From an uncultured Acidobacteriia bacterium (GTDB lineage: Bacteria; Acidobacteriota; Terriglobia; Bryobacterales; Bryobacteraceae): a stretch of DNA of 64,000 bases. The notes beneath the pieces are model-generated. The model worked only from the letters and a program-made list of their open reading frames with translations. It searched no databases and was not told the DNA's origin. The position numbers and the translations under genes are program-made. The stretch covers positions 1 through 64,000 of the forward strand of contig CAIVPR010000098.1 in NCBI GenBank assembly GCA_903907865.1. Reading direction: 5' to 3'. Position 1 is the stretch's first letter. Each line of letters opens with the position of its first letter. Shown here one piece after another: positions 8,879-55,342 of this stretch.

Positions 8879-8918
8879 CATGACAACGAGTTACCCAAAA
8901 ACGGACAATGTTGGAATT

Positions 8919-8992: not shown

Positions 8993-9107
8993 AGCTGGGA
9001 GGGAATGTCGGCAACCGCCAACACTTCTTTCAGTTTACAACACTCGCTCTGTCCGCGAGCCGGTCGCCAAGTCCCGCGAAACAGGGTGCCATAGAATTGT
9101 TCCTGTC

Positions 9108-9903: not shown

Positions 9904-9959
9904 GAATTGGAGCACCAGCGCGCTACAATGGCCCGAGGCGGTGTTGAACCGTCCAATGC

Positions 9960-10054: not shown

Positions 10055-10067
10055 CCTCCGCCTCCGC

Positions 10068-22547: not shown

Positions 22548-23734
22548 GCGGTCTCCCCTCCGCGCAGCCGGTTCCAAACAACCCGCCGGAGAAATACTGC
22601 GTTGCCAACAAAATACCGTCGCCACATGCGGCGCGGCTCCTGGATGAAACGGTAAAACCACTCCATGCCGATCTCACGCACCCATGCCGGGGCGCGCTTG
22701 ATGCGGCCTGAATAGAAATCGAACAGGCCCCCGACGCCCATCGCCACCCCGACCCCGGTCGCGGCAAGGTTTTGCGCGATCCACTTTTCCTGGCGCGGGG
22801 CGCCGAACGCGACCAACAGCACACGAGCGCCGGAATCGCGGATCCCGCGCAGGACCTCCTCCGTTTCCTCAGGCTTGAAAAAGCCGTGACGGTGGCCTAA
22901 GACCCGGACCTGCGGGTAGTTCCGACCAATCCAGTCGGCCACGGCGGCGGCGATACCCGGTTGGCCGCCGAGCAAATACAAGCCCGTTTGCCGGATTTCC
23001 ATCTCGGCGCAAAGCCGCGGGAACAGGTCCGTGCCGTTTACATTCTGGCGGATGTTGGTGTTCAGAATCCGACCGGCGATCTTGATGCCGATGCCGTCGG
23101 CCAGCACCAGGCCGCTGGTGCGCAGGATCTGGCGGTAGTCCTGATCGCGGTAGGAAATGTTGACGCAGTCGGCGTTGATAAAGCAGGCCTGCGATGGAAT
23201 TGGTGCCACCGCGCGGGCCAGGATGTTGTCAATCGCCTCGTCCATCGAGAGGTTGTCGATGCGGATGCCCAGGAAGTCGATTTCGTCCGGGGCCGCCGCC
23301 ACTCCCTCGCCGTAAAAGGCGGCGGGGATGGCGCGGAGTCCGATGGCCATGTCGTTCCACAGCGACTGGCTGTCGAGGTATTCGGAGTCCGATTCCGATT
23401 CGGAACCGTAGGCGATGTTGGCCCGTTTGCGGATCCACCACAGGCACACGAGGCCGGGCCGGACTTTAAACCGCCGCCACGCGAAACGATCGGTCGGCGA
23501 GACCTCGTCGGCGGCCACCGGACGGGGCCCCACAAACGCCAGATCCCCCTTCAGCACGTTCCAGAGGGCTGGCAAATCGCGCATTGGACCGGAGTCGAAA
23601 CTGAACTCGTCGAACACGATGCCCCACCGTCCGAGCCGCTCCGTCCTCGCGATCCCTCCGCCTTTGGCCCGGGCGGCGATCAACAGGAGCAACAGCAAGG
23701 GCGCCAGGAGCAGCAGCGCCGCAGCCGACATCAA
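22544..23734 (-). CDS. Sugar-transferase-like membrane domain fused to WecG/TagA/CpsF glycosyltransferase (5' end frameshifted)
   Basis: Reading from the TTG/ATG at 23734/23731, the first 150 residues are a shortened phosphoglycosyl-transferase-like domain: a hydrophobic hairpin ([16 protein letters not shown]), then [20 protein letters not shown]. About 50 residues of the catalytic region are missing, and the Asp-Glu dyad is replaced by Arg-Asp. Residues 155-390 form a complete WecG/TagA/CpsF domain ([63 protein letters not shown]). Such enzymes add the second sugar to a lipid-linked intermediate. A 4-base duplication (CAGG twice, 23744-23751) separates it from its natural N-terminus. Confidence 0.8.
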   Translation of the reverse strand: [396 protein letters not shown]

Positions 23735-23942: not shown

Positions 23943-24728
23943 CTAGTACGCACCCTTGCCGAAGATGACAGCCGGAGCGGTCTTCAGAAGCAGCACGATG
24001 TCGAACCAGATGCTCTGGCTTTCGATGTACTGCACGTCGAGTTCCACCTGCTTGGGAAACGGGATATCGCCGCGCCCGCTCACCTGCCAGATGCAGGTCA
24101 GTCCGGGCTTGACATCCAGGCGGCGGCGGTCGCGCAGCGAGTACAGAGCCACTTCGCGGGGTACCGGCGGACGGGGGCCGACCAGCGACATGTCGCCCTT
24201 CAGCACGCACCACAACTGCGGCAGTTCGTCGATGCTGGCTTTGCGGATGATTCGCCCGATCCACGTGATGCGCGGATCCTTCTTCATCTTGAACGTGATC
24301 CCGTTCTGGTGGTCGTTCATCGCCAACAGCTTGTCCTTGAGGGCCTCGGCATTGGTCACCATCGAGCGGAACTTCGGGAAGGGAAACTCGCGGCCCCACT
24401 GTCCGACCCGTTTTTGCCAGAACAGGATCGGCCCGCGGTCGGTCAGTTTGATGGCGAGCGCGACGCCGATCAGGAACGGGGACAGCCCGATCATCATGCA
24501 GATGGAAACCACGATGTCGATCAGTCGCTTGGTCACCCTCGCCCCGCCGATCACGAGCTTCCAGAGATATTTCTTGTGCCAGTACTGCCAGCGCACGGCG
24601 AGACCCTGGCTGCTTTCCGTGCCGTAGCGGGCATACAGGGCTTCGATCAAGTCCAAGCGGGCTTGGTCGCTTGCGGGAGGGGTGGCTCGGGGAGTGGATG
24701 CAGTCGGGGTCACGGAAATAGTGTCCAA
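23943..24728 (-). CDS. Polyprenyl-phosphate sugar-1-phosphate transferase (monotopic phosphoglycosyl transferase)
   Basis: The 261-residue protein carries the canonical features of the initiating bacterial sugar transferases: a re-entrant membrane hairpin (about 68-90, [19 protein letters not shown]), [20 protein letters not shown], the catalytic Asp-Glu pair in [25 protein letters not shown], and [14 protein letters not shown]. It transfers a sugar phosphate to undecaprenyl phosphate, the first step of exopolysaccharide or O-antigen synthesis at the inner membrane. It is the first gene of the long minus-strand operon that ends at 12503. The N-terminal 65 residues are soluble and Pro/Thr-rich. 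Confidence 0.92.
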   Translation of the reverse strand: [261 protein letters not shown]

Positions 24729-29403: not shown

Positions 29404-29988
29404 CTACTTGTGCTGCAGTTCCCAGTCGTAGTTGATCAACAGGTTGTCGTGCGCGATGCGCCCCTCGTCCGCCGGGTTGTAGAAGCGGTCCGTCATGTAG
29501 ATCAGCATCGAGGGTTCCAGCCCAACCACCTTGTACCCGTGCGCGATTCCCGGCGGGATCAGGATCTGCCACGGGCGGAGGTTGCCCACGTACAGCGTGT
29601 TGCGGTGGCCGAACGTCTCGGAATCGGGACGCAGGTCCACCAGCGCCACCTGCAGCATGTTCGCGGCCGGAGTCCAGCAGTCCGTCTGGTGCAGGTGGAA
29701 GTGGAAGGCCTTGATGATGCCCGGATAGTTGAGCGCGGCCGAGACCTGCGAGGTCTCCTTGGGGAAATCGGCGGCGAGGCCGAAGCCCATCCGCTGGACC
29801 TCAAGGAAATAGCCGCGGTCGTCGGGCCAGAGCGACAGAGCCTTGCACTTGACGCCCGAAATCAGTTTCGGGCTTTCCGGATTGAGGATGATGTCGCCAA
29901 TTCCCTTGTCGCATTTTGGCAGCACGAGTCCGGAGGGAAGGGAAGGGCCGGCATGCTTGTCGTGGTGGTAAGGCGTGGTGTTTGTCAT
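29404..29988 (-). CDS. rfbC: dTDP-4-dehydrorhamnose 3,5-epimerase family protein
   Basis: The 194-residue cupin-fold protein follows the RmlC pattern: GVKCKALSLWPDDRGYFLEV, SQVSAALNYPGIIKAFHFHL, HQTDCWTP, then LVDLRPDSETFGH, ILIPPGIAHGYKV and YNPADEGRIAHDN. RmlC epimerises C3 and C5 of dTDP-4-keto-6-deoxyglucose during dTDP-L-rhamnose synthesis; some relatives make other deoxysugars. The His-rich FHFHLHQ loop differs from the usual RGLHFQ, so the exact product is open. It is divergent from rfbA, with about 157 bases between them. rfbB and rfbD are not in the window. Confidence 0.85.
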   Translation of the reverse strand: MTNTTPYHHDKHAGPSLPSGLVLPKCDKGIGDIILNPESPKLISGVKCKALSLWPDDRGYFLEVQRMGFGLAADFPKETSQVSAALNYPGIIKAFHFHLHQTDCWTPAANMLQVALVDLRPDSETFGHRNTLYVGNLRPWQILIPPGIAHGYKVVGLEPSMLIYMTDRFYNPADEGRIAHDNLLINYDWELQHK

Positions 29989-30145: not shown

Positions 30146-30901
30146 ATGAGAGGGATCATCTTGGCCGGGGGCACAGGCAGCCGTCTGTTCCCGTTGACGA
30201 AGGTCACGAACAAGCACCTGCTGCCCGTCTACAACCAGCCCATGATCTACTACCCCATCCGAACGCTTCTGGACGCGGGCATGGACGAACTTCTGATCGT
30301 CACGGGCGGCAACAACGCGGGTGATTTCCTGCGCCTTCTGGGCAGCGGACGCGAGTTCGGCAAGATCCACCTGAACTATACCTACCAGGAGGGGGAAGGC
30401 GGAATCGCCGACGCCCTGCGGCTCGCCGAGCACTTTTCGGATGGCGAAAAGATCTGCGTGATTCTGGGCGACAACATTATCGACGGCTCCATCCGCGGCG
30501 CCGCCGACGATTTCCGGAACCAGGACCAGGGGGCAAGGCTGCTCCTGAAGGAGGTCCCCGACGCCGAGCGCTTCGGTGTGGCCGAGATGGAGGGCGGTCG
30601 GATCGTGGGGATCGAGGAAAAGCCGTCCCATCCCAAGTCCAACTGCGCCGTGACCGGGATCTACTTCTACGATAATACGGTGTTCGACAAGATTAGGACC
30701 CTGAAGCCTTCCCGTCGCCACGAACTCGAAATCACCGACGTGAACAACGCCTACATCGCGGAGGGGAGTCTGACCTACTCGTTCCTCGACGGTTGGTGGA
30801 CCGACGCGGGGACTTTTGAGTCGTTGGCGCGTGCCAACCGCTTGGCTGCGGCGAGGGCCGGCCTGGTGCTCGACGACGAACTGGTCGCCGGCGCATACTG
30901 A
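30146..30901 (+). CDS. rfbA: Glucose-1-phosphate thymidylyltransferase
   Basis: The 251-residue protein has the nucleotidyltransferase signature GIILAGGTGSRLFPLTKVTN at its start, KHLLPVYNQPMIYYP, the metal-binding ILGDNIIDG, GVAEMEGGRIVGIEEKP and WTDAGTFESL near the end. It makes dTDP-glucose from dTTP and glucose-1-phosphate, the first step to dTDP-rhamnose. It is the short form, about 40 residues shorter than enterobacterial RmlA and without its C-terminal helical extension. AGGAGAAC stands before the ATG. Together with the divergent rfbC it supplies a deoxysugar for the surface polysaccharide. Confidence 0.9.
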   Translation: MRGIILAGGTGSRLFPLTKVTNKHLLPVYNQPMIYYPIRTLLDAGMDELLIVTGGNNAGDFLRLLGSGREFGKIHLNYTYQEGEGGIADALRLAEHFSDGEKICVILGDNIIDGSIRGAADDFRNQDQGARLLLKEVPDAERFGVAEMEGGRIVGIEEKPSHPKSNCAVTGIYFYDNTVFDKIRTLKPSRRHELEITDVNNAYIAEGSLTYSFLDGWWTDAGTFESLARANRLAAARAGLVLDDELVAGAY

Positions 30902-39592: not shown

Positions 39593-39773
39593 TACCATCA
39601 TTGCCGCGACGGCCCTAGTTTCCGGTTTGCCGTTGCTTCACAACAACGGCGTCGACTTCGAAGCCATCACCCGCGCGATCATGGCCTGTCCCGAGCGGTT
39701 TCCGGGTCTAGGTCGTCTGGACTTGGTTGCATGCTCCGAAATTCCCTTCGGAAGTGCCCCAGTTAGCGTTTGA
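39501..39773 (+). pseudogene. Remnant of a PIN-domain (VapC-type) toxin with internal deletion
   Basis: The 90-residue frame opens with MGLLPD, like the start of PIN toxins with their first catalytic Asp, but then runs into a basic, Pro-rich stretch. Residues 28-60 restore a genuine PIN C-terminal part: RWRFDTIIAATALVSGLPLL, HNNGVDFEAI. The central region of a normal 130-residue PIN domain is absent. It overlaps the end of the antitoxin gene by about 90 bases, far more than usual. The nuclease is almost certainly inactive. Confidence 0.6.
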
Positions 39774-40488
39774 GCGGCTCCCAGTATTCGCGGTCCCGCC
39801 TGCGCTCGGCCCGTTCCTCAGCTTGGAGTTCATTATCGACTCTCTCGTAGTCACCCGCCAGGGCGGCTTCGACAGCCGGCCGACCGGCTGCGGTCAAGGC
39901 CTCCTCCGGCCAACGCTGTACTGCCTCCATGAGCGACTCGACCGTCCGCAATTCCCCCAACCAGAATGCTATTTCGCCCTCGGTCGGTTCGTGCGCATGG
40001 CCGAAGAAACTCTGGTCCACCAGCCGTCGGATCATAGGCCAGTCCTTGTCGCGCTGGGTCTTTTTGGCCAGAACCAAGTCCGGCAGGGAAAGGAGCTCGA
40101 CCGGCTGCCCGTCGATTTCCAAAGTGGTGCGCCTCGCCCACAACTCCTCGAACGGCGCGACACCGCGGAGGTTGGACATCACGTCGATCCTCAGTTGGTC
40201 CACGTCGGGACGCAGACACCGGAAGTGGACAGCGTGGCCCCGCAGCAAGTGCTCTGCCCGGAAGTCGGGAATAGCTATAGGCGCGGCCTGCAGTTCCGAC
40301 AGTGCGTCTTGAAGCTTGGAGAGGTTGGTGTCGCCGAGTATTTCGCCGTCCACCAGAACAAGCAGGTCCAAATCCCGGCTAAACTCTGCCGCCCCGTAGA
40401 ACACGCACGCTTGGCCGCCCATCAGCAGCATTCGCACGCCATTCGTCCGCATCGAAGAAAGGGCTTTGAGGATCGGGCTCTGGTTCAA
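39763..40488 (-). CDS. Nucleotidyltransferase-fold protein (MNT/AbiEii-like)
   Basis: The 241-residue protein has the minimal nucleotidyltransferase motif MLLMGGQACVFYGAAEFSRD followed by LDLLVLVDG (GG...DxD metal site). A middle part reads FRCLRPDVDQLRIDVMSNLR and VELLSLPDLVLAKKTQRDKD, and the C-terminal half is helical and charged. Such proteins often belong to toxin-antitoxin or abortive-infection pairs in which they modify tRNA or a partner protein. Its 5' end overlaps the small gene upstream by about 110 bases, so the two are co-translated. The C-terminus overlaps the end of the PIN remnant on the other strand. Confidence 0.7.
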   Translation of the reverse strand: MNQSPILKALSSMRTNGVRMLLMGGQACVFYGAAEFSRDLDLLVLVDGEILGDTNLSKLQDALSELQAAPIAIPDFRAEHLLRGHAVHFRCLRPDVDQLRIDVMSNLRGVAPFEELWARRTTLEIDGQPVELLSLPDLVLAKKTQRDKDWPMIRRLVDQSFFGHAHEPTEGEIAFWLGELRTVESLMEAVQRWPEEALTAAGRPAVEAALAGDYERVDNELQAEERAERRRDREYWEPLKR

Positions 40489-40654: not shown

Positions 40655-41767
40655 CTAAAGGAAGATGCGCCCGTCGCTGTCGCCGCGCGTAAAATGCACA
40701 TTCGCCATCCCTCCCGGTTCCGCGTTGATCGCGGCCGCCAGGGGTTTCGACAGCGCGAGGATGTAGTTCGACGGCCCGGAGAGATAGCCCGCAGAGCGGA
40801 AAGCCTGCATCCACGCCGCGTGCGACTGGTTCGTCACCAGCAACTCCGCTCCCTCCCGAGCCAACGCCCGGGACGCCAGTTCGATGCACCCCAGCTTCGT
40901 CCCGTCAATCGCCACGGCGTCGAGCAGGGTCGCGACCTGGAGATTGCCGAAGAACTTGTGGTCCCGCATCTTGGTAAGGAGTGCCGCGACCCAGCCCACG
41001 GGGCGACCGTCCCTCCGAATCAAATAGCCTCGCGTCCGGCCTTCGAGGGGGTAGAGCGCGCGAACCGTTTTCAGATCCCGCCGAACAGCGAACGAAAACT
41101 CGCCGCGGCATTGTTCCCACAACTCGTCCGCCCAGTTGCCCCAAGTTGTGATCGGCTCCACGCTGAGACCACGCGTCGAAAACGCCGCGGCGGCGGACCG
41201 GAACTGCAGCGCGGAGATTCCAACCTTCCCGAGTCCGGTCGCTGCCGCAATACTCGCGATGAGCCGCCTCGCCGGGGAGGCCTGAAGAAGCCGCAATTCG
41301 CGCAGAAAACGCGACGCGCGAACAACTCGAAACAGGAACGGAACCGGGAACACCGTCCAACCTGCGCTTTTCAGCAACCGGGGAAATGGCCGGTCCTCAC
41401 CGCCCATCCCCAGCGCGAACAGGTACGGCCCCTGTTGCTGCATGAACCTCATGAGGCGCAGGCCGACCAACGAATACTTCGGATCGATGATGGCTTCCGA
41501 AAGCGGCTCGCGGGAATTCAACAGGTCGCATTCGGCCCCGGAGCCAAACGCCGCCGGAAACGCGGCCAGCAATAGACCGCCCCGAACCGACTCTTCCTCC
41601 TGTGCGACATAGAACCGATTCCGGACAGGCGCGTCGTCCGGCTCCATCACGGGCGGATATTCCGTCAGCAGGTATTCGGTTTGGCCATGAGCCCGCATGC
41701 GCTCGTTGAAAGCTGTCGCTTCCACCGCCTGCTCTGCGGTCTTATACAGCTCGATGCGGATAGCCAT
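40655..41767 (-). CDS. GNAT/FemAB-like acyltransferase
   Basis: The 370-residue protein looks like two GNAT-like halves. The N-terminal half has FYVAQEEESVRGGLLLAAF; the C-terminal half has GYLIRRDGRPVGWVAALLTK, then LLDAVAIDGTKLGCIELASR and the terminal LLVTNQSHAAWMQAFRSAGY. This is the pattern of acyltransferases that act on amino groups. It is the last gene of the minus-strand cluster that includes an acyl carrier protein, with 6 bases between it and the deacetylase gene. Transfer of an acyl group from the ACP to a deacetylated amino sugar is an inference from context. Confidence 0.65.
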   Translation of the reverse strand: MAIRIELYKTAEQAVEATAFNERMRAHGQTEYLLTEYPPVMEPDDAPVRNRFYVAQEEESVRGGLLLAAFPAAFGSGAECDLLNSREPLSEAIIDPKYSLVGLRLMRFMQQQGPYLFALGMGGEDRPFPRLLKSAGWTVFPVPFLFRVVRASRFLRELRLLQASPARRLIASIAAATGLGKVGISALQFRSAAAAFSTRGLSVEPITTWGNWADELWEQCRGEFSFAVRRDLKTVRALYPLEGRTRGYLIRRDGRPVGWVAALLTKMRDHKFFGNLQVATLLDAVAIDGTKLGCIELASRALAREGAELLVTNQSHAAWMQAFRSAGYLSGPSNYILALSKPLAAAINAEPGGMANVHFTRGDSDGRIFL

Positions 41768-41773
41768 CGCGTC

Positions 41774-42706
41774 TCAGGAGGTGCCGTGGAAGGCTTTGAC
41801 CGCCAGCCATTTCCATTCGAGGCGGGTGATCTCGTCGTAGGAAATCGTGAACGGGCCCTTCTTGGCCTTGAGATGGTCCATCAAGGGCGAAACGGGCGCG
41901 GACCAAGGATTCTTCTTGCTAATCCGCGTCATCAGGCGGCGGAACTCGGGATCCAGCTTGCCGTCCGTGACAAAGCCTTTTCCGAGGTGGGTGTACATGA
42001 TGCTCATGCCGCCCTCCTCCTCCAGTCGGTCCTGGTTCACCTCGGAAATGGTTTTCACGAACGAACGGCAGTCGGTACCTTCGGAGGCGCTGAACCACTC
42101 GTGGACGTAAGGCCGGTCGACGCTGGTGTACGGCTGGTACGGGCAGGCCTTCAGGGTGTTGATTTCACGGAATACGAGGTTGCGGAAATACTGTGTCCTG
42201 TCGCGGCAAAGATCGCCCCAAAAGTGGGGGGAGCCTTCGACGTGGCCCGAAAAGCGACTCTTCTTGCCGCCAAAGGTCATCAGGTTGTAGAGTGCGCGGC
42301 AAGCCGGGGAGTGCAGCCGGGCGGCACCCCAATACAGTGCGTCGGCATTGTAATGGTTGGCGACGGATCTAGGGTAGGCCCCAAAAATATCCCGAAACAC
42401 ATCTAGACTTTGAATGATCTCAGCACGCACGCAATCATGCGGGGCTGCGTTGTGGTAACTGATCTCGAAACCGATGTCCTGCATGTGGAGCAGGTGTTCG
42501 CGATAGTCCTTGTCGGCGCATGTCTCGCCAGAGCTGTTGCGTTGGCGCAACGGACCGATCGGCCAAACCGCAATGCTCGTACGAAAACCGAGATCGGCGA
42601 GAAAGGGATAGACCCACTTTCGCGAAGCTACCGTATCGCCGTCTGGGTCGTCGAAAACCGTGAACGCGAACCGTTTTCCTTCCGGCCACTCGATCTTCGG
42701 AATCAT
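41774..42706 (-). CDS. Polysaccharide deacetylase-like protein
   Basis: The 310-residue protein has the NodB-type opening KRFAFTVFDDPDGDTVA, with the Asp-Asp metal and catalytic pair, and the second motif FEISYHNAAPHDCVRAEI, with two His residues spaced as in the family H-S/T-x-x-H-P motif. Later parts (VANHYNADALYWGAARLHSP and GGMSIMYTHLGKGFV) complete a TIM-barrel-like chain. Such enzymes remove N-acetyl groups from sugars. There is no signal peptide, so the substrate may be a cytoplasmic sugar intermediate. It overlaps the ACP stop by 4 bases (ATGA). Confidence 0.75.
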   Translation of the reverse strand: MIPKIEWPEGKRFAFTVFDDPDGDTVASRKWVYPFLADLGFRTSIAVWPIGPLRQRNSSGETCADKDYREHLLHMQDIGFEISYHNAAPHDCVRAEIIQSLDVFRDIFGAYPRSVANHYNADALYWGAARLHSPACRALYNLMTFGGKKSRFSGHVEGSPHFWGDLCRDRTQYFRNLVFREINTLKACPYQPYTSVDRPYVHEWFSASEGTDCRSFVKTISEVNQDRLEEEGGMSIMYTHLGKGFVTDGKLDPEFRRLMTRISKKNPWSAPVSPLMDHLKAKKGPFTISYDEITRLEWKWLAVKAFHGTS

Positions 42707-42954
42707 GCCCCGGCCTTCTCCGCGTAGGAGGCCATCGCGTCGATGGTGCCGAAGTTCTCGAGCGTCAGCTCTTCCTGCTCGATCTCGAGATTGAATTCAT
42801 TTTCGAACCACATGATCAGTTCCAGCAGTCCGGGCGAATCCAGCGCGCCCCGGTCGGGGATGGAGTCATGGTAGCCCAGCGAACTGGCGTCGTTGCCCAG
42901 TCGTTTGGCGAGTTCGATGATCTTCTGATGGATTGCTTTGCGTGGGTCGGTCAC
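42703..42954 (-). CDS. Free-standing acyl carrier protein
   Basis: The 83-residue protein is a typical ACP: four helices, acidic overall, with the phosphopantetheine-bearing serine at residue 40 in RGALDSPGLLELIMWFENEF. It is not in a fatty-acid gene set (no fabD, fabG or fabF near it). Instead it lies 13 bases after the E2-like gene and overlaps the deacetylase gene. It is therefore a dedicated carrier for the acyl group produced by the E1/E2 pair, an inference from gene order. Confidence 0.9.
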   Translation of the reverse strand: MTDPRKAIHQKIIELAKRLGNDASSLGYHDSIPDRGALDSPGLLELIMWFENEFNLEIEQEELTLENFGTIDAMASYAEKAGA

Positions 42955-42967
42955 GTGAATTTACCTT

Positions 42968-44098
42968 TCAGGCCTCGTCGGCGGCAGGCGGAGTCGTTAG
43001 GCTCCGGAGTGCGGCAACCACATCCTGCCCGTTCAGGACGCGGTGGTCGTATGTGGCACCAATGCACGCATTCTGGCCGGAAGGGGAGGTGTGGGCGATC
43101 ATCATGGCGGTGTGCGGCAGCAGGACGGGCACGTGCCGGGTTACCGGCCAGCGCGCCATGCTGCTGAAGCCGATGGTGGCTCCCGAGGCTTCCTCCGGAC
43201 GCAGGGAGTTGCGCATCGCACCGCGTTGGAGATCGGTAAGTTTCTTCACAAACGCCGCTTGGTCCAGCTTTTCCGCCTCACGAACCACGACCACCATGAG
43301 ATTTGAGCTCACTTGTATGGTGAAACCAAGATTGACGTGCTCGTACTGCCAGGACTGGTCCGCAAAGATCGTCGAATTGATCAGGGGTTGTTCCACCGCG
43401 ACCCGGGCGAATCGCCACGCCAGTAGCGGGAGCAGTGGGTTCAGCAGCAACCGATGCTGCTTCTGGAAGGCTGCGGCGTACTCGGCCCACGGTGCCACGT
43501 CCCAAGCTAGTTCCAGATACCCGGGCACGGCGTCCGACTTTTGCCAAGATACCGTGCGCAACATTCCGTGGGCCGGCGGACTCAACGCAATCTTCTTGCC
43601 AGGCTCGGGCGGCGGGCTGGAGGGGGCTGCAACGGCATGGCTGACCGAGGCGGTTCGGGAAGCCGGCACGAGTCCCTTTGCTCGAATATGATTCTCGACA
43701 TCGGTCGCCGACAAACGTTCGGCAGAAGCCGGGACGTCCTTCGCGGCGAGTCCGTACTGTGATAGAAGAATCGCGGCCTTCAACGTCGGCGTTCCCGTCC
43801 GTGTGCCCGCAGAGGAGTCTGCGGACGCGGCAGCCGCGGCGGTGGGCACAGCTTCCGTGGCGGAGTCGCCGATCCAGGCCAGCACCGAGCCCACGGCGAT
43901 GGTCTCGTCGATCTCGAAGCAGAATGCCAGCACATAGCCGTCTTGATCGGCCTCGACGGTGAAGGTCGCCTTGTCGGTCTCGACCTCCGCTACCGGATCA
44001 CCCTGCTTGACGTAGGTTCCGGGTTCCACAAGGCATTTCGTGAAACGAACGGTGTCGTCGTTGTTGTTGAGTCTCGGAGTGTACAGTGCGGCGGGCAT
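42968..44098 (-). CDS. Lipoyl-dependent E2 acyltransferase of a 2-oxoacid dehydrogenase-type complex
   Basis: The 376-residue protein has a lipoyl domain (1-80) with the lipoylated Lys43 in VAEVETDKATFTVEA, then an Ala/Pro linker, a degenerate subunit-binding domain (LLSQYGLAAKDVP...LSATDVENHI) and a complete catalytic domain (about 165-370). The active-site motif is YDHRVLNGQD: the catalytic His is present, but the usual Asp of DHRxxDG is Asn. E2 proteins move an acyl group from dihydrolipoate to CoA. The ACP gene directly downstream suggests that ACP takes the place of CoA here. Confidence 0.87.
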   Translation of the reverse strand: MPAALYTPRLNNNDDTVRFTKCLVEPGTYVKQGDPVAEVETDKATFTVEADQDGYVLAFCFEIDETIAVGSVLAWIGDSATEAVPTAAAAASADSSAGTRTGTPTLKAAILLSQYGLAAKDVPASAERLSATDVENHIRAKGLVPASRTASVSHAVAAPSSPPPEPGKKIALSPPAHGMLRTVSWQKSDAVPGYLELAWDVAPWAEYAAAFQKQHRLLLNPLLPLLAWRFARVAVEQPLINSTIFADQSWQYEHVNLGFTIQVSSNLMVVVVREAEKLDQAAFVKKLTDLQRGAMRNSLRPEEASGATIGFSSMARWPVTRHVPVLLPHTAMMIAHTSPSGQNACIGATYDHRVLNGQDVVAALRSLTTPPAADEA

Positions 44099-44107
44099 GG
44101 ATGATGT

Positions 44108-46138
44108 TTAGGTGGTGGCCAGATCCGCCAAAATGGCGCCAATAACACAGTCTAGAACATTCTGCTCGGACGGCAGAACAGCCGTTTCGAGGCTGCGGGC
44201 CGCCGGAATTGGGATCGGCGGCGAGGCGACGCGGCGGTACCGGCCCCGATAACCCGCTTCCAAAAGACAGCTCCCCAGTTCGGCGGCGAAGCCGAATTCC
44301 GAAGGCGCTTCCTCGATCACAACGATTCGAGGGCTTCCCATCAGATGGTTGACCAGCGTGGCGCGCGGCAGAGGCGCCAAGAGCGACGGGGCCACAATCT
44401 CGCACGCGACCTCCTCCTCCGCCAGTTGTGCCGCGACAGCCTCCGCCAGTTGCACGGAGTCGCCATACGCCACCAGCGTGACATCCGGTTCGCGGCTGCC
44501 CCGCGTCAGAATGGGAAACCACTCGGCACCGTGATCGGACGCGTCGGGAGCCAGTTCCTGATACCCGGCAGTGTCCACGGTCCTTCCGTACAGGAGTTTG
44601 TGTTCGAAAAACACCGTGGGTGAATTCCAGCCGAGCACCGCGCGCCGTAGCAGCAGGCCTGGATCGTGCCTATGGCTGGGGAAAACGATAGTCAGACCGG
44701 GCACGCCCGTCATCAGATTTTCCGGGCTCTGGCTGTGTGTCGGACCGTAGCCGCGGCGTCCGCCGCTGGGCGTGCGCAGCACCAAGGGAACGCGGGCGTC
44801 GGCAAACATCCCGGGGAACTTCACCGCGTGGTTATACAGTTGATCCATCGCCAGCGACAGGAAGTCCGCAAACATGATTTCGACAACGGGCCGGTATCCG
44901 TCAAGCGCCAAGCCGATGGCAGCCCCCACGACGCCAGCTTCGCTGATCGGTGTCGATATGACGCGGCCTGGATAGCGGGTGCTGAGGCCGGCGGTCACTT
45001 TGAAAGCTCCTCCGTAGGGGTCGTGGAGATCCTCGCCCAACAGAATCACTTCCGGGTTGGCCGCGAGAAGCTCGTCGAGCGCATTGTTCAGCGACGCGCG
45101 AACGTTGCCTCCCGTGCTGACGGTAGTCGAGTTGGCCGTGTCCGGGGGCGTACGGTCGGCAAAGAAAATGTGCCGGTTGGAACTGTCGGATGTCGACTCC
45201 GGGGACTCCATCGCATCCCGGTAAACTTCATTGAGGAACTCGTCGGCGGCCCTGTCGATGTCGGCTTTGATGCTCGGATCCAATCCCAGTCCGAGTCTCG
45301 TCAACGGGTCGCGCGCGCGGATCGCTTCCATGTGGTCAACGTCCCGCAGGTCGTCGCCCTTACTGTGCGGCCCCAGTCGGCAGGTGTCGATCACGAGGAA
45401 CCCGGGTTTCCCCGAGGCCCTTACTTCCTCCACGACGTCTTCGGTACTCCTCAGGAAGTCCGCATGGGAGTCGTTGAGACGCCAAGTCTTGATGCCAAAT
45501 GCCGAGCCGCGGCCTTCCAGCGAGCCGCCAACCGTATCCACGGTAGGCGTCGTCTGCGCGATGCTGTTGTTTTCCACAACAAAGAGCATCGGCACCGCCC
45601 AAGTGGAGGCCAGGTTGAGGCTTTCATAGAGTAGGCCCTGGCCGGTGGTCCCGTCTCCGATGATCACGGCCACAACGCCGTTTTCCTTCCGGCGCTTCAG
45701 CGCCAGCGCATGGCCCGCGCCGATCGCGGTCATTCCGCCCTGCACGCCATTGCTGTGGAAACCGCGGAATGCCAGATGCTGACTGCCCCCGATGCCACCG
45801 CAGACACCGGCCTCGCGACCCATGATCTCCGCCACAAGGCCCAGAAAGTCGCCGCTATAGGTCAGAAAGTGGCCGTGATTCCGGTGGTTGGACAGGGCGA
45901 CGTCAGCGGGATTGTTCAGGGCCCGCACCACGGACATGGCGCAAAGCTCCTGTCCGATGCAAGTGTGCGTGGTCCCGGAAAGAAGTCCTTGGGAGAACAG
46001 ACGCAGCAGCAATTCTTCGGCCTTCCGTATCAGCGATCCATACGAATAAACCGATGCCGAGTCGAGGTGGATGAGCGGCTTCCCGTCCGCGTTGCATGGA
46101 AACAGGCGCGATGCCTGCGCTGGCGCGTTTTTGGTCAT
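44108..46138 (-). CDS. Fused alpha-beta E1 component, thiamine-diphosphate-dependent 2-oxoacid dehydrogenase
   Basis: From the ATG at 46138 the 676-residue chain joins an E1-alpha part (about 1-300: THTCIGQELCAMSVVRAL, SNHRNHGHFLTYSGD, and the ThDP-Mg motif GDGTTGQG...VVENN) to an E1-beta part (about 345-670: EVILLGEDLHDPYGGAFKVT, STPISEAGVVGAAIGLALDG, PSGGRRGYGPTHSQSPENLM). It would decarboxylate a 2-oxoacid, or cleave a ketose, and pass the acyl unit to the E2 lipoate. No E3 gene is present, so the genomic E3 would be shared. No strong ribosome site is visible before the chosen ATG. Confidence 0.9.
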   Translation of the reverse strand: MTKNAPAQASRLFPCNADGKPLIHLDSASVYSYGSLIRKAEELLLRLFSQGLLSGTTHTCIGQELCAMSVVRALNNPADVALSNHRNHGHFLTYSGDFLGLVAEIMGREAGVCGGIGGSQHLAFRGFHSNGVQGGMTAIGAGHALALKRRKENGVVAVIIGDGTTGQGLLYESLNLASTWAVPMLFVVENNSIAQTTPTVDTVGGSLEGRGSAFGIKTWRLNDSHADFLRSTEDVVEEVRASGKPGFLVIDTCRLGPHSKGDDLRDVDHMEAIRARDPLTRLGLGLDPSIKADIDRAADEFLNEVYRDAMESPESTSDSSNRHIFFADRTPPDTANSTTVSTGGNVRASLNNALDELLAANPEVILLGEDLHDPYGGAFKVTAGLSTRYPGRVISTPISEAGVVGAAIGLALDGYRPVVEIMFADFLSLAMDQLYNHAVKFPGMFADARVPLVLRTPSGGRRGYGPTHSQSPENLMTGVPGLTIVFPSHRHDPGLLLRRAVLGWNSPTVFFEHKLLYGRTVDTAGYQELAPDASDHGAEWFPILTRGSREPDVTLVAYGDSVQLAEAVAAQLAEEEVACEIVAPSLLAPLPRATLVNHLMGSPRIVVIEEAPSEFGFAAELGSCLLEAGYRGRYRRVASPPIPIPAARSLETAVLPSEQNVLDCVIGAILADLATT

Positions 46139-46533: not shown

Positions 46534-48084
46534 TCAGGCCAAGGCGATTTTGAAGGCCACAGCGTAGTCGGATGGCTTCTGCTCGGGCAACTCCACTTTG
46601 AGCGCCGCCGCGCCCTGGCTCCACTTGAGCTTGCCCTTGTGCCCCAGCAACTCTACGTTGTGGAATTTGGGGACCTCGTATTTCCCGCCCAGGGCCAACG
46701 AGGGAATGACGGCTTCCTTGCCCGCCCAGCCCATCGAGAAAGCGTAGAGGCTCTTGCCCTTCGTGGTGAAGCGGAAGTCGTCGGCGGTGAGGTCCTTGCG
46801 GTTGTTTTCGTTGAACCGGGTGTTGGTGACGGGCGCGCTGACGATTGCGGGCCCAGCCCCGAAAGTCTTCCACGGCCGGGTCGAGTGAATGCCCTCGCTG
46901 TTGACGGCCATCCACTTCGTGATTTCGTCAAGGATGTGCAGTTCCTCGGCATCGAGCTCGCCGCTGCCGGGCAGGGGGAAGTTGAGCATCAGATTGCCGT
47001 TGCGACTGACGATGTCGCAAAGCATGTCGATCACGGTCTTCGGCGTCTTGTATTTCATGCCGCGCTTGTAGTGCCAGTTGCCGACGCAGGTATCGGTCTG
47101 CCATGCGTTCGCCATCGCGCCCTCGGCCACGCCGCGCTCGATATCGAAAACGCAGGTGCCGGTATCGCATTCGTTGCGGCGCTTGCTTGTGTAGACAGCT
47201 TCGACCTTGCCGCCGTGGTGCTTCGCGTTGAGGTTGTAGTGATGCGAGACGAGCCGCGCGCCGACGTCGCCATAGAACATGCCGCCATCGGTGTAGAGGA
47301 GATCTGGCTGGTAGTTGTCGACCAGGTCTTTGACGCGCAGGAAGTACTCCCGCTTCCATTCGTCGGACGCCTGGGTCATGCTGCCGCCCATGCCGGTGAG
47401 GATAATCTTGTAGTCCGGCGGGAGTTCGTGATAGAGGTCCTTGTAAGCCGGGTCCACCCCGTCATAAGGGACGCCGGCAAAAGGCCCGCTCTTGTCGCTG
47501 CCGTGCGAGACGCCGAACCAGTTGTAGCTGGGAGCCAGGTGCTCGCTTACGCCGAACTTCAGGCCCTGTTTCTCGGTCGCCTTTTTCCACATTCCCACGA
47601 TGTCTTTCTTCGGTCCGGTGGCGACGGAGTTCCAGCGGGGCTGGTACTTCGAGTTCCAGAGGTCGAAACCGTCGTGGTGAACGCCCATGCTCATGAAGTA
47701 CTTCGCGCCGGCCTTCTTGTAGAGGGAGACGAGGTGGTCGGGATCGAACTTGTCGGCCGTCCACATGCGGCAGATGTCTTTGAAGCCGAACTTCGAGGGA
47801 TGGCCGAAGCGCTCGAGGTGGCTCTTGTATTGATCCTCGCCCTCGATATACATGCGTCGCGCATACCAGTCGCCATCCTCCGCGGCCGACTGCGGGCCCC
47901 AGTGCGCCCAGATGCCAAATTTGGCGTCCTTGAACCATTCGGGAATTTGGTATGCCTTCAGTCCTTCGCGGGTCCCGTCGAAGGGCCCCTTCTCGATTTC
48001 GGGCAGGCCGGTTTGGGCCAATGCTTTCGAGGCGAAGACGGGGGCTGCGAGGGCGGACAGGGCGTCGCGGCGTGTGATGTGCAT
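46534..48084 (-). CDS. Alpha-L-fucosidase (GH29), Tat-exported
   Basis: The 516-residue protein starts with a Tat signal (TRRDALSALAAPVFASKALA). GH29 features follow: PEWFKDAKFGIWAHWGPQSA, AGAKYFMSMGVHHDGFDLWN, EKQGLKFGVSEHLAPSYNWF, and the catalytic-nucleophile region NYQPDLLYTDGGMFYGD. A beta-sandwich C-terminal part ends near residue 516. The enzyme removes terminal alpha-L-fucose from glycans in the periplasm or outside the cell. GGAG stands before the ATG. It is on the same strand as the E1 gene but separated from it by nearly 400 bases. Confidence 0.9.
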   Translation of the reverse strand: MHITRRDALSALAAPVFASKALAQTGLPEIEKGPFDGTREGLKAYQIPEWFKDAKFGIWAHWGPQSAAEDGDWYARRMYIEGEDQYKSHLERFGHPSKFGFKDICRMWTADKFDPDHLVSLYKKAGAKYFMSMGVHHDGFDLWNSKYQPRWNSVATGPKKDIVGMWKKATEKQGLKFGVSEHLAPSYNWFGVSHGSDKSGPFAGVPYDGVDPAYKDLYHELPPDYKIILTGMGGSMTQASDEWKREYFLRVKDLVDNYQPDLLYTDGGMFYGDVGARLVSHHYNLNAKHHGGKVEAVYTSKRRNECDTGTCVFDIERGVAEGAMANAWQTDTCVGNWHYKRGMKYKTPKTVIDMLCDIVSRNGNLMLNFPLPGSGELDAEELHILDEITKWMAVNSEGIHSTRPWKTFGAGPAIVSAPVTNTRFNENNRKDLTADDFRFTTKGKSLYAFSMGWAGKEAVIPSLALGGKYEVPKFHNVELLGHKGKLKWSQGAAALKVELPEQKPSDYAVAFKIALA

Positions 48085-51057: not shown

Positions 51058-52719
51058 ATGACAGATAAGAAACTCCAAGTCGTTCCGCTGGGCGGACTCG
51101 GCGAGTTCGGTATGCACATGATGGCGATCCGCTACGGCGACGACATCATCGTTATCGACGCCGGAATGATGTTTCCGGAGGACGATCTGCTCGGTGTCGA
51201 CATCGTCACCCCGGACCTGCAGTACCTCAAGGACAACCGCCAGCACGTGCGCGCGCTCCTCCTCACGCACGGCCACGAGGACCATATCGGTGCCGTTGCC
51301 TTCTTCCTGGAGGAATTCGACGTCCCGGTCTACGGCACGCCCTTCACGCTCTCGCTGGTCGAGCGGCGTCTTGAGGAGTACGACGTCGATACCCCGACCG
51401 TCAAGCCCGTCAAGCCCAAGGACATCGTCCAAATTGGCCCGTTCGCCATCGAGTTCATCCACGTCACGCACTCCATCGTGAGCTGCGTCGCCATGGCGAT
51501 CTCGACCCCGCTCGGCGTCATCATCCACACGGGCGACTTCAAGGTCGACCCCACGCCGATCGACAACGAGATGTTCGACCTCCACACGCTCGCCGACTAT
51601 GGCAAGCGCGGGGTGCTGCTGCTCCTGTCCGATTCCACCAATGCCGACCGGCCCGGCTATTCCGATTCCGAGCGCGCCGTCCGTCCCCGTTTGGAGGACG
51701 TCTTCAACCGCGCCGAGAATAGGCTTTTCGTCTCCTGCTTCAGCTCCTCAATCCACCGTCTGCAGTTGATCCTGGACCTCTCCCGCGACTTCGGCCGCAA
51801 AGTGGCGCTCATCGGTCGCAGCATGATTTCGGTGACCGAGATCGCCCACCGGCACGGCCTCCTCAGCATCCCCGACGGCGTGCTGATCCGCCCGCAGGAC
51901 GTGGCGGAAACCAAGAAGGCCAAGGTTACCGTTCTGATCTCCGGCACCCAGGGCGAGCCGATGTCGGCCCTCTCGCGGGTCGCCGTGGACAACCACAAGC
52001 ACATCTCGATCCACCCCGGCGACACCGTCGTCCTCAGTTCCCGCATCATCCCTGGCAACGAGAAGACCATCTTCCGGATGATCGACCACCTCTCCAAGCG
52101 CGGTGCCGACGTGATGTACGGCAGCATGAACCCGCCGCTCCACGTTTCGGGCCACGGCTCGATGGAGGAGCTACGCCTAGTGCTGAACCTGGTCCGTCCG
52201 CGCTACTTCGTGCCTGTTCACGGCGAGTACCGCCAAATGGCCAAGCACGTCCGGCTGGCGTCGCACCTCCGGGGCATCGGGCTCGAAGAGTGCTTCATCA
52301 TGGAGACCGGCGATGTCCTCGAGTTCGACAAGCGCGGTGCCCGCAGGGCTGGCCGCGTCCACGTCGGGCGTGTCTGCATCGACTCCGGTGCCGTGGGCGA
52401 AGTGGTCGGCGACATGGTCATCCGCGACCGCCGCTTGATTTCCGAAGACGGCATCGTCCTGCCGATCTTGGCGATCAACAAGCACTCCGGACGGATCGAA
52501 TCTGCCGAAATCGTCAGCCGTGGTTTTGCCCTCGAAGGCGACCCCGAGTTCATGCGGTCCGCGCGCGAAGTGATCACCCGCACCTTGGAGAATTCCAGTG
52601 CCGAGGAAAAGGGCGATCCCGGTGTTATCAAGGAAAAGATCCGCACGGATCTGAAGCGCTTCATCAGCCGCGAGACGCAGCGTCGCCCGCTGATCACGCC
52701 GGTAATCTTGGAGATCTGA
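51058..52719 (+). CDS. rnj: Ribonuclease J
   Basis: The 553-residue protein has the metallo-beta-lactamase/beta-CASP layout of RNase J: LQVVPLGGLGEFGMHMMAIR, the zinc motif HGHEDHIGA (71-79), HTGDFKVDPTP, the beta-CASP region (CFSSSIHRLQLILDLSRDFG, ISGTQGEPMSALSRVA), HVSGHGSMEEL and FVPVHGEYRQ, then the C-terminal dimerisation domain. It processes and degrades mRNA by 5'-3' exonuclease and endonuclease action. The full family length is present. Two genes for surface O-acylation follow within 10 bases and may be read from the same transcript. Confidence 0.95.
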   Translation: MTDKKLQVVPLGGLGEFGMHMMAIRYGDDIIVIDAGMMFPEDDLLGVDIVTPDLQYLKDNRQHVRALLLTHGHEDHIGAVAFFLEEFDVPVYGTPFTLSLVERRLEEYDVDTPTVKPVKPKDIVQIGPFAIEFIHVTHSIVSCVAMAISTPLGVIIHTGDFKVDPTPIDNEMFDLHTLADYGKRGVLLLLSDSTNADRPGYSDSERAVRPRLEDVFNRAENRLFVSCFSSSIHRLQLILDLSRDFGRKVALIGRSMISVTEIAHRHGLLSIPDGVLIRPQDVAETKKAKVTVLISGTQGEPMSALSRVAVDNHKHISIHPGDTVVLSSRIIPGNEKTIFRMIDHLSKRGADVMYGSMNPPLHVSGHGSMEELRLVLNLVRPRYFVPVHGEYRQMAKHVRLASHLRGIGLEECFIMETGDVLEFDKRGARRAGRVHVGRVCIDSGAVGEVVGDMVIRDRRLISEDGIVLPILAINKHSGRIESAEIVSRGFALEGDPEFMRSAREVITRTLENSSAEEKGDPGVIKEKIRTDLKRFISRETQRRPLITPVILEI

Positions 52720-52726
52720 CCGCCCG

Positions 52727-53959
52727 ATGGACTTGGCCGGAATCCGCGAACTAGTGGCGGGGCTGTCGTCACACGACCGACAGGACCTGCTGCGTTGGCT
52801 GAAGGATTCCGAGGCGACCAGGTTGCGCTCCGAACGAGCCGAGGCGCGCAGTGCCGTTATAGGCCAGCGCGCCGATACGCTGAGGGGGGCAGTCGCTTGG
52901 TCGCTGCTGACGCTGCTGGTGTTCTTGTGCGTCGAAGGCTTCGTGTTTCGCTCCGGCTGGTATTTCAAGTTCGTCCAGCCGGAGTCCTCAGCCGGGCAAT
53001 TGCATTTCCAAGTCTTCTGGCTGAATCACGAATTGCCCGCCAAAGTCCCGGAAGTGGGCGTTGCGGGGGATTCCCGAATCGCCGAAGGCTTTTCCGCCCG
53101 CACGGCCACGGCGGCGGCCGGCGACAAGATCCATTTCTGGAACATCGGCGTGGCTGGCTCCTCGCCCCGAACGTGGTACTACCTGCTGCGTGGGGGCGAT
53201 CCCGACCGGACACGCTTCAAGACCGTTGTACTCGGTATCGACAAGTACGCCGACGTGGACGGTACCGAGGATCTCCGCAACCGGCCTACAGATCTCTTCT
53301 ACGTGTCGAGCCAACTGCGCCTGACCGACTGCCCGGAGTTCGCCGATAGCCACCCCGACCCCGCCGTCCGCCACGACGTCCTCGTCGGCTGCCTGTTCAA
53401 GGGCATCACCATGCGGCGCGACCTGCTTGACTTCCTCGCGGACCCCGTCAAGCGCTTCGATGCCGCCAGGGACTGGCGCAACCTCGGCCATGGCTACATC
53501 GACGGCTACGGCGGCAAGCCCGAAGACCTCAAGGGGTTGTCAATGGACCCGGCCACCCATGCCCTGACCTTCCCGCCCGGTCTCAAGGACTGGCAGAAGA
53601 GCAGCGTTGAGAATACCTATTCGCATGCCTTCGCGCCCCTTCCGCAGTCCGGCTCCGTGACCGCCTACCGGCGCCAGTGGCTCACCAAGATCGTCGACTA
53701 CTACGCTGGCACCAAGACCCGGATTATCCTCCTGGAATTGCCCCGTGGCCCCATTCCGCCCCCCGAGTCGCCGGTGCTGCCGACTGCGGTGTCCGAACTA
53801 AGCCGCCGTCCCAACGTCACGCTGCTCCCGAAGGAAATGTTCCATGACTTGGAACGCCCGGAGCTCTTTGCCGACGGGCTTCACTTGAACCACCACGGTC
53901 GTCCGATCTTCTCTGAACGCCTCGGTCGCAAGGTAGCGGAACTGATGGGGGTGAAGTAG
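52727..53959 (+). CDS. SGNH-like membrane-anchored protein, probable O-acylation partner (DltD/AlgX-like)
   Basis: The 410-residue protein has a cytoplasmic N-terminal helix region (1-52), one membrane helix (about 54-74) and a periplasmic domain. The SGNH block I appears as VGVAGDSRIAEGF, and the C-terminal block V as FADGLHLNHHGRPIFSERLG (Asp-x-x-His), so the Ser-His-Asp set looks complete. Such proteins work with an MBOAT protein to put acyl groups onto exported polysaccharide or teichoic acid. The MBOAT gene follows with no intervening base. Confidence 0.78.
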   Translation: MDLAGIRELVAGLSSHDRQDLLRWLKDSEATRLRSERAEARSAVIGQRADTLRGAVAWSLLTLLVFLCVEGFVFRSGWYFKFVQPESSAGQLHFQVFWLNHELPAKVPEVGVAGDSRIAEGFSARTATAAAGDKIHFWNIGVAGSSPRTWYYLLRGGDPDRTRFKTVVLGIDKYADVDGTEDLRNRPTDLFYVSSQLRLTDCPEFADSHPDPAVRHDVLVGCLFKGITMRRDLLDFLADPVKRFDAARDWRNLGHGYIDGYGGKPEDLKGLSMDPATHALTFPPGLKDWQKSSVENTYSHAFAPLPQSGSVTAYRRQWLTKIVDYYAGTKTRIILLELPRGPIPPPESPVLPTAVSELSRRPNVTLLPKEMFHDLERPELFADGLHLNHHGRPIFSERLGRKVAELMGVK

Positions 53960-55342
53960 GTGCTATTCACCACCCTTCAGTTCGCCGTCTTCCTTGGCGT
54001 CGTTCTGTCATTGTTCTATCTGTTGCCGAAGCCCGCGCGCCGATACCTGCTTCTCGGGGCCAGCCTGTACTTCTACATGGCCTGGAACCCGAAGTTCGTA
54101 GTGCTGATCCTCGGCCTGATCACCGTCGACTTCTTCGCCGCGCTGTGGATCATCCACAAGCACGGCTGGCACCGCAAGTTCGCGATGCTGGTCAGCGTGG
54201 CGGCCAACATCGGTATGCTGGGATGGTTCAAGTACGCCAATTTTCTGCGCGAAACTTGGTTGAACCTGCTGCATCCGGGCGCGCCGGTGGTCCCGCTCGA
54301 TATCATACTGCCCCTTGGTATCAGCTTCCACACCTTCCAGAGCATCTCCTACGTCATCGACGTCTACCGGGGCGAGCAACCTGCCATCACCAGCTACATC
54401 GACTACGCGCTCTTCGTGGCCTTCTTCCCGCAGTTGGTGGCCGGACCGATCGTCCGCGCCCGCGAGTTCTTCCTCGACTACTTCAACTGGACCCAGCCGA
54501 CTGCCGCCGAGTGGCGTCAAGGCTGTTCCATGATCCTGACCGGCCTGGTGAAGAAGTTGGTCTTCGCGGACCAGTTCGCCTCCGCCGCCGACCGCTACTT
54601 CGCCAACCCGCAGGCCATGCCCGGCGGCATTCCCGCGTGGACCGGCACCATCGCCTTCGGCCTGCAGATCTTCTTTGATTTTTCCGGCTACACGGACATC
54701 GCGATCGGCGTGGCGCTGCTCTTCGGTTTCCACTTCCCTGAGAACTTCCGGCGACCGTATTTGTCGGCCTCGGTGACCGAGTTCTGGCGACGCTGGCACA
54801 TGACGCTCTCGGGCTGGCTGCGGGATTACATCTACATCGGACTCGGCGGCAACAAGCACGGGGCCGCCCGGACCTATGCCAACCTCATGGCGACCATGTT
54901 GCTGGGGGGACTCTGGCATGGCGCGAGTTGGAATTTCGTGATTTGGGGCGGCTACCACGGAGCCGTCTTGGCGGTGGAACGGGTAGTCTGGGGCAGGGGA
55001 GTCCGCAAAGGGCTGATCCGGATCCCGCTGGTTGCCGTGACGTTCCTGGTGGTCAACGTTGGTTGGGTCTTTTTTCGAGCCAAGACTCTGGCGGTCTCAG
55101 TGTTCGTTGTCAAATCCATGTTTTCGGGACTTGACGGCGCGGAGGTTTTGACGCCGGTTCAGCTCGGGCTGGCCGTGGGCGCGCTTGGCATCGCCCTAGC
55201 CGAGGAATACGGCGACATGCTGACGAAGCTGGCCGATTCCCCCGTGTGGCTACGGACCGCGGCAGCAGTCGTGGCGTTGTTCGCCATCGAGCTGTTCACG
55301 GCCTCCGACCAGTCACTGCCCTTCGTCTACTTCCAGTTCTAG
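53960..55342 (+). CDS. MBOAT family O-acyltransferase (AlgI/DltB-like)
   Basis: The 460-residue membrane protein starts at a GTG immediately after the previous TAG. It has about eleven membrane segments and the AlgI signatures LPLGISFHTFQSISYVIDVY, FVAFFPQLVAGPIVRAREF, FFDFSGYTDIAIG and SVTEFWRRWHMTLSGWLRDY, and the catalytic His in LLGGLWHGASWNFVIWG. It carries acyl groups across the inner membrane to modify an exported polysaccharide. The partner SGNH-like protein is encoded directly upstream. A REP-like palindrome follows the stop codon. Confidence 0.93.
   Translation: MLFTTLQFAVFLGVVLSLFYLLPKPARRYLLLGASLYFYMAWNPKFVVLILGLITVDFFAALWIIHKHGWHRKFAMLVSVAANIGMLGWFKYANFLRETWLNLLHPGAPVVPLDIILPLGISFHTFQSISYVIDVYRGEQPAITSYIDYALFVAFFPQLVAGPIVRAREFFLDYFNWTQPTAAEWRQGCSMILTGLVKKLVFADQFASAADRYFANPQAMPGGIPAWTGTIAFGLQIFFDFSGYTDIAIGVALLFGFHFPENFRRPYLSASVTEFWRRWHMTLSGWLRDYIYIGLGGNKHGAARTYANLMATMLLGGLWHGASWNFVIWGGYHGAVLAVERVVWGRGVRKGLIRIPLVAVTFLVVNVGWVFFRAKTLAVSVFVVKSMFSGLDGAEVLTPVQLGLAVGALGIALAEEYGDMLTKLADSPVWLRTAAAVVALFAIELFTASDQSLPFVYFQF

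Follow-up and report, generated by a model that had tools for sequence, protein, structure and literature searches.

A dehydrogenase-like E1/E2 pair, a free acyl carrier protein, a deacetylase-like protein and a GNAT protein form a candidate N-acylation cassette in Acidobacteriota

The minus strand of a 64,000-nucleotide stretch of DNA from an uncultured Acidobacteriia bacterium (contig CAIVPR010000098.1; the whole stretch is referred to as the window) holds at positions 40655-46138 an operon of five genes, spaced by -4 to 13 bases, which encode a fused alpha-beta E1 and a lipoyl E2 of the type found in 2-oxoacid dehydrogenase complexes, a stand-alone acyl carrier protein (ACP), a deacetylase-like protein of the CE4 fold and a tandem-GNAT protein. 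This arrangement and the unusual E2 motif DHRVLNG had been pointed out in an earlier reading of the same DNA (the original prediction) and are borne out in the sequence. We consider it slightly more probable than its alternatives taken together that the operon is an acyl-ACP-driven N-acylation cassette, in which E1 and E2 would generate a short acyl-ACP, and the GNAT protein would use it to acylate an amine freed by the deacetylase. The parts of this reading differ in strength: sequence comparisons make it highly probable that E1 and E2 load the ACP, analogy with known pathways makes it reasonably probable that the acyl group is a glycolyl derived from a ketose, and it is about equally probable that the re-acylated amine belongs to an amino sugar.

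The original prediction had proposed to be judged by whether the five genes stay together in related genomes. They do so in four loci beyond the window (L012, L017, L019 and L125; related loci are given L numbers, and genomes of the window's order G numbers), so that the set recurs in other Acidobacteriota. Two variants are L015, in which the GNAT gene is inverted and adjoins E1, and L056 from Chthoniobacter flavus (Verrucomicrobiota), in which the E1 is divided into alpha and beta genes. The ACP of L019, which the neighbourhood table had scored as absent, lies at about 9711-9980, and the GNAT of L125, missed by the gene caller, is encoded by an open reading frame that starts just past the deacetylase stop. 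A profile search of the 257 genomes of the window's order detected a cassette-type E1 in seven, at no less than 546 bits (next match: 350 bits): G000, G432 (L015), G439 (L012), G417, where the contig terminates inside E2, G401 (L125), G426 (L017), where E1 is spread over two contigs, and G608 (L128). The last is the exception to the conserved neighbourhood; neither deacetylase nor GNAT was found within the 11.2 kb stretch examined, and the E1-E2 pair is followed by a 280-amino-acid (aa) protein with an AcpS-type phosphopantetheinyl transferase domain (PF01648, 33.3 bits, cut-off 25), the whole group lying at 6364-10707. E1 alpha and beta parts, a lipoyl E2 and a free ACP are encoded together in the window, L012, L015, L017, L019, L125, L163 and L056, and also in L181, there with a weak ACP profile match (19.6 bits). 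The deacetylase-like protein is rare, occurring in 5 of the 396 genomes of a phylum sample, the window's genome counted. Given this conservation, we reject a chance adjacency of the five genes. It also bears on the explanation that E1 and E2, as their domain architecture would allow, constitute an ordinary coenzyme A (CoA)-dependent dehydrogenase for a 2-oxoacid or acetoin, next to an ACP, a deacetylase and a GNAT gene by coincidence.

The best sign of ACP loading by E1 and E2 is that unrelated loaders stand in their place elsewhere. A pattern scan of the species-genome collection for deacetylase relatives yielded 152 stretches, the best 80 of which underlie the following results; removal of L083, a near-copy of L008, left a neighbourhood table of 79 loci. 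GNAT and loader genes were scored within 8 kb of the deacetylase with gene-family models built from the same loci, so that weak or distant loaders may be missed. A GNAT gene was present in 38 of the 79 loci, and 30 of these 38 also had an acyl-ACP loader, as opposed to 1 of the 41 loci without GNAT (Fisher p 3.6e-13, a descriptive value, as the loci are not independent). The GNAT-bearing loci comprised 19 with FkbH (two of them also with an AMP-ligase), 6 with an AMP-ligase alone, 5 with E1/E2 and 8 with no loader; among the GNAT-less loci, 22 of 41 carried a FemAB-like protein and no loader. The identity of the FkbH domain rests on the one member scanned, L013 (TIGR01686, 205.7 bits, cut-off 146.65). 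In relatives with the same GNAT and deacetylase, FkbH or AMP-ligase occupies the place of E1/E2. On a deacetylase tree of 41 loci (the 38 GNAT-bearing ones plus the window, L008 and L125), the three loader labels require 9 changes, compared to 2 for a single origin of each and a mean of 12.7 for shuffled labels. The E1/E2 label alone requires 5, at least 3 of them imposed by starred branches. E1/E2- and FkbH-type loci interleave, L014 (FkbH) being the sister of L017 (E1/E2) at 95/86. Loaders thus appear to have succeeded one another repeatedly while the deacetylase-GNAT core stayed the same, from which we infer that E1 and E2 load the ACP too.

Some of these loci have additional features. Planctomycete cassettes with an AMP-ligase continue with a LuxE-like acyl-protein synthetase (L034, L049, L060, L087), and some FkbH versions include a VOC/epimerase-like protein (L028, L034, L065); one FkbH-type relative is from Microvirga. 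An E1-like match in L024 (9075-10010) was not counted; by eye, it resembles a split transketolase, of which it would be the C-terminal half, and lies immediately ahead of a deacetylase-GNAT-ACP-ligase cassette.

The window E1 (44108..46138, minus strand; 676 aa) was assigned as a fused alpha-beta thiamine diphosphate (ThDP) enzyme from its Pfam domains (E1_dh, Transket_pyr and Transketolase_C), alignment, trees and clade residues. In separate alpha and beta trees, the cassette E1s together with those of L056 and L128 are separated from 24 ordinary E1s at 100/100. Among the matches listed in plasmid records (20 of 72 records), the best was RenH, encoded in the renieramycin cluster (four records; 39% and 369 bits), the others listed reaching at most 235 bits. 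RenH, from Candidatus Endohaliclona, likewise combines both E1 parts in one protein and shares 39-40% of its residues with the window E1; we presume its role by analogy, and found in the open-access literature no paper on RenH with renieramycin or on the symbiont with pyruvate dehydrogenase. In a second tree, confined to E1s with both parts (hence without L017, L106, L113, L126, L131 and L135), RenH joins the cassette clade at 100/100 against 22 other E1s. A third tree of 33 rows places 12 E1s (the cassette E1s, L163, L128, RenH, L056, L181, L171 and L183) in one clade at 100/100 against 21 others. This tree omits L101, L103, L105, L107, L111, L112, L115, L116, L119 and L124, all present in the earlier trees, adds L163, L164, L165, L168, L171, L175, L178, L181, L183, L184, L186 and L187, and is also without L166, L169, L170, L172-L174, L176, L177, L179, L182 and L185. 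The window E1 thus groups, via RenH, with an E1 of a tetrahydroisoquinoline pathway. Two residues distinguish the clade: Gln120 and Tyr171 are present in 10 of 10 clade E1s, whereas 22 of 24 ordinary E1s have Met and His, respectively. Because midpoint rooting was used and the ordinary E1s are those that the searches happened to return, the claim concerns the separation of the clade and not its ancestry. The E1 of L056 is sister to that of L181 (100/100); E1/E2 therefore seem to have joined the deacetylase-GNAT core at least two times, independently in the Verrucomicrobiota.

The E2 (42968..44098, minus strand; 376 aa) consists, according to Pfam and alignment, of a lipoyl domain and a 2-oxoacid dehydrogenase acyltransferase domain. 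Its predicted lipoylation site, Lys43 in ETDKA (43970..43972), is invariant in the six aligned E2s. Asn356 (43031..43033) in the motif DHRVLNG occupies the position that is normally the Asp of HxxxDG. This Asp is lost in 10 of 10 clade E2s, whereas 19 of 20 E2s that neighbour ordinary E1s and have a readable motif keep it, the sole control without it being L114 (Gly). The replacing residue varies: Asn in the window, L056 and L163, His in L012, Ser in L015 and L017, Thr in L019, L125 and RenI (DHRVLTG), and Glu in L128. The E2s of L181 (Asn) and L187 (Asp) are outside both counts, as are the candidates without a readable DHR motif (L091, L099, L115, L134, L145, L149, L150, L151 and L158). A free ACP was detected by profile beside 8 of the 10 clade E2s. 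Loss of the Asp marks the clade, and on these comparisons use of an ACP is its likely reason, though there may be others.

An ordinary dehydrogenase in the operon is thereby rendered very improbable, and we reject this explanation on the E1 clade, the E2 motif and the conserved neighbourhood; the swapping of loaders speaks against it as well. No E3 gene was seen by eye in the operon or the window, although an ordinary complex may likewise draw on a shared E3 from another part of the genome. The original prediction would have fallen had E1 and E2 turned out to be an ordinary CoA-dependent pair; as far as this was checked, the window E1 sides with RenH outside the ordinary group, and its E2 lacks the motif of CoA-dependent enzymes.

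As for the donor, NapB/NapD of naphthyridinomycin and QncN/QncL of quinocarcin biosynthesis, E1/E2 proteins resembling pyruvate dehydrogenase (PDH), reportedly (for NapB/NapD: PNAS, 2012) carry a two-carbon unit from a ketose via ThDP and lipoate to an ACP. For scleric acid, SclQ1-4 (ACP, E1-alpha, E1-beta and E2) were proposed, by homology to QncN/L/M, to derive the glycolic unit from a ketose phosphate (PMC6335953). All three systems (NapB/NapC/NapD, QncN/QncM/QncL and SclQ1-4), which supply the glycolic unit of their respective products, share with the window the combination of E1 alpha and beta parts, lipoyl E2 and free ACP, to which the scl cluster adds a phosphopantetheinyl transferase (PMC6335953). 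They differ in serving non-ribosomal peptide synthetase (NRPS) lines, whereas in the window E1, E2 and ACP are accompanied by a CE4-fold hydrolase and a tandem GNAT. The window E1 is fused; in the NapD and NapB homologues DinS (754 aa) and DinU (306 aa) the division is different (PMC7570522). FkbH-ACP glyceryl loading, known for tetronates and methoxymalonyl-ACP, similarly involves an FkbH-domain protein and a stand-alone ACP and replaces E1/E2 in the operon relatives, although the enzyme is unrelated to the window E1/E2. Its donor is 1,3-bisphosphoglycerate (PMC7489565), and an FkbH-domain gene, cj1302, lies within the flagellar glycosylation region of C. jejuni (PMC7099621). As FkbH is the commonest alternative loader, the comparison points to a small hydroxyacyl group.

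Alternatively, E1 could feed the same cassette by decarboxylating pyruvate, 2-oxobutyrate or a branched 2-oxoacid, so that the ACP would bear an acetyl, propionyl or branched acyl group. The pepteridine system of Photorhabdus provides a model: its E1 resembles PDH, its E2 carries fused carrier and condensation domains (E2-T-C), and the two were proposed to prime the carrier with a 2-oxoacid-derived acyl group and to acylate an amine. The acceptor there is a pterin and the transferase an NRPS condensation domain, in contrast to what we propose for the window (PMC5384830). By eye, the window E1 retains general E1 motifs in the alignment, and AMP-ligases in some relatives imply that a hydroxyacyl group is not obligatory. 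Since the E1 clade sides with RenH and not with ordinary E1s, we nevertheless regard a 2-oxoacid donor as rather unlikely.

The remaining members of the operon fit the proposed cassette by their folds. The ACP (42703..42954, minus strand; 83 aa) matches the Pfam PP-binding family at 24.7 bits (cut-off 20.8), and its predicted phosphopantetheine site, assigned by eye, is Ser40 in LDS (42835-42837). The deacetylase-like protein (41774..42706, minus strand; 310 aa) is a putative amide hydrolase, for which an AlphaFold2 model (pLDDT 95.3) and a fold match yield the CE4/NodB-type fold. In an alignment of 32 relatives, D19, D20, H85, H118 and H240 (window numbering) are invariant; the Asp-Asp of CE4 motif 1 (D19, D20) and the His of motif 5 (H240, assigned by eye) are present in 32 of 32, and an HxxxxH motif is found in 27 of 32 including the window, the second His being missing in the other five. 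The tandem GNAT-fold protein (40655..41767, minus strand; 370 aa) was assigned from an alignment of 25 sequences, an AlphaFold2 model (pLDDT 93.2) and a fold match. Neither protein of the window matches any Pfam or NCBIfam model: for PF01522, the window deacetylase gave no match and the relative L068 18.4 bits, where 23.1 are needed, and for the GNAT protein no Pfam family, NodA-type acyltransferases included, was obtained at E <= 0.01. Its donor is presumably acyl-ACP rather than acyl-CoA, given its co-occurrence with the ACP and a loader. In Nod factor synthesis, NodB, NodA and NodF combine a deacetylase with an acyl-ACP-dependent N-acyltransferase acting on an amino sugar. The window shares this logic and differs by its GNAT without Pfam family and by the operon, in which no chitin synthase or ketosynthase was seen.

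The cassette could operate in the following manner: E1 would accept a two-carbon unit via a dihydroxyethyl-ThDP adduct, the donor most likely being a ketose phosphate, and an oxidative transfer would leave this unit on the lipoyl arm of E2 as an acyl thioester, the acyl group most likely being glycolyl. The catalytic domain of E2, in which the CoA-type Asp is gone, would use the phosphopantetheine arm of the ACP, rather than CoA, as acceptor of this group, and the dihydrolipoyl group may be re-oxidized by an E3 encoded elsewhere. The CE4-fold enzyme would deacylate an N-acylated compound on the cytoplasmic side, probably an amino sugar linked to a lipid or a nucleotide, and the amine so exposed would receive the ACP-borne acyl group through the tandem GNAT protein.

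The product may also be a small molecule or an aminolipid instead of a glycan, with the deacetylase-like protein trimming a small amide and the GNAT acylating a non-sugar amine, an explanation to which we assign a low probability. The GNAT-less deacetylase relatives speak against it, as at least two glycan gene families surround 30 of these 41 loci (L083 set aside). So does L189 (5024-6981), where, within an O-antigen-ligase cluster on a Bacteroides thetaiotaomicron plasmid, a GNAT-family gene adjoins that of a distant deacetylase relative (31%), as well as the fact that sister E1s adjoin lipoyl-PglD/hexapeptide proteins.

Several observations weigh against the N-acylation cassette, in particular against its glycan and glycolyl parts. 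The corresponding count of loci with at least two glycan gene families is lower, 14 of 38, for GNAT-bearing loci, and three of the six loci with the gene set, L012, L017 (with short flanks) and L125, have no recognised glycan genes nearby; among the five E1/E2 loci counted, two are surrounded by at least two glycan families, one has a single family and two have none. The deacetylase motif HxxxxH is not the classical motif 2, H(S/T)xxH, which has three residues between the His. The E1/E2 label is weakly clustered on the deacetylase tree, 39 of 500 shuffles giving as few changes. In L128, an ACP-like N-terminal part of the 280-aa protein is discernible by eye, and both Pfam and the ACP profile miss it. 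RenH and RenI sit with NRPS genes on a 33-kb record that, unlike the window, has no free ACP, either annotated or detected by profile, but just a weak carrier-domain match in RenK (1285 aa); RenI itself is therefore no demonstration of ACP loading. The link to a ketose donor is indirect, as Nap, Qnc and Scl enter by description and RenH alone represents the tetrahydroisoquinoline E1s in the trees. The precedent is not airtight either, since deletion of sclQ1-4 left residual scleric acid, restored by added glycolate (PMC6335953). The pepteridine proposal adds to these points, and the roles assigned to the cassette members are predictions from sequences and folds. The original prediction had combined ACP loading with transfer of the acyl group to an amine, such as that of a deacetylated amino sugar. 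Taken as a whole it is supported, neither of its two refuting conditions having been borne out as far as they could be checked; its first half gains from loader swapping, the E1 clade and the E2 Asp, while its second half is consistent with the folds and the pairing of deacetylase and GNAT, set beside several five-gene loci that lack recognised glycan genes.

Outside the five-gene loci, the 396 genomes of the phylum to which L057's genome belongs were searched for Nap-like E1s, which yielded L163, L181, L183 and many other E1s. No E2 was found beside the E1s of L172-L175 and L184. L181 encodes β-ketoacyl-ACP synthase III (KAS III), E1-alpha, E1-beta, an E2 (DHRVVNG) and a probable ACP. In L163 (193-9506), an exopolysaccharide-type locus, E1-E2-ACP are followed by the exosortase-A-associated hydrolases 1 and 2 (TIGR03101 and TIGR03100, both above cut-off). 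E1-alpha and E1-beta of L183 (8156-11279) adjoin, on the opposite strand, a PglD-type hexapeptide transferase that carries a fused lipoyl domain, all domains being above cut-off, and the E1 of L171 (7745-10877) adjoins a lipoyl protein whose hexapeptide match stays below cut-off; direct transfer of an acyl group from lipoyl to sugar, bypassing CoA and ACP, is possible in both. Just outside the clade, L186 (2211-7337) has a row of radical SAM protein, polysaccharide deacetylase (PF01522, 47.7 bits), hexapeptide transferase, a free 88-aa lipoyl protein and E1-alpha/beta, possibly a parallel deacetylate-reacylate set with lipoate as carrier. These gene contexts suggest that acyl groups made by E1s acylate sugars, sometimes without an ACP.

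In the window, the operon is flanked on the same strand by genes for a DUF2204-type nucleotidyltransferase downstream (39763-40488) and an alpha-L-fucosidase upstream (46534-48084). Glycan genes lie 10 to 18 kb from the operon and outside it, encoding a WecG/sugar transferase (22544-23734), a second sugar transferase (23943-24728), a dTDP-sugar epimerase (29404-29988) and a nucleotidyltransferase (30146-30901). Positions 51058-55342 encode RNase J, a 410-aa protein without Pfam family and an MBOAT acyltransferase in tandem.

Glycolyl loading by E1, E2 and ACP is already known, and the CE4-GNAT context appears to be new; no description of the CE4-GNAT partners, of the exchange of E1/E2 for FkbH and AMP-ligase loaders or of the breadth of the core was found in a limited search of the open-access literature. 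More tentatively, the operon may belong to a widespread, hitherto undescribed bacterial deacylate-reacylate system that edits the N-acyl groups of surface-glycan amino sugars, with FkbH (glyceryl), AMP-ligase (free acid) or E1/E2 (ketose-derived glycolyl) as loaders; its E1 clade would be dedicated to two-carbon donation to non-CoA acceptors, and some lipoyl-PglD fusions would pass the acyl group from lipoate straight to the sugar amine. If the proposed function holds, loss of the E2 Asp together with the E1 clade residues would give a means of recognising from sequence those E1/E2 pairs whose acceptor is not CoA, and a large group of unannotated genes would become testable at once. The route from a ketose to glycolyl-ACP, described so far for a few antibiotic pathways, would then be a more general bacterial source of N-glycolyl groups, requiring neither oxygenases nor glycolyl-CoA, and one among several plug-in loaders for a single acylation cassette.

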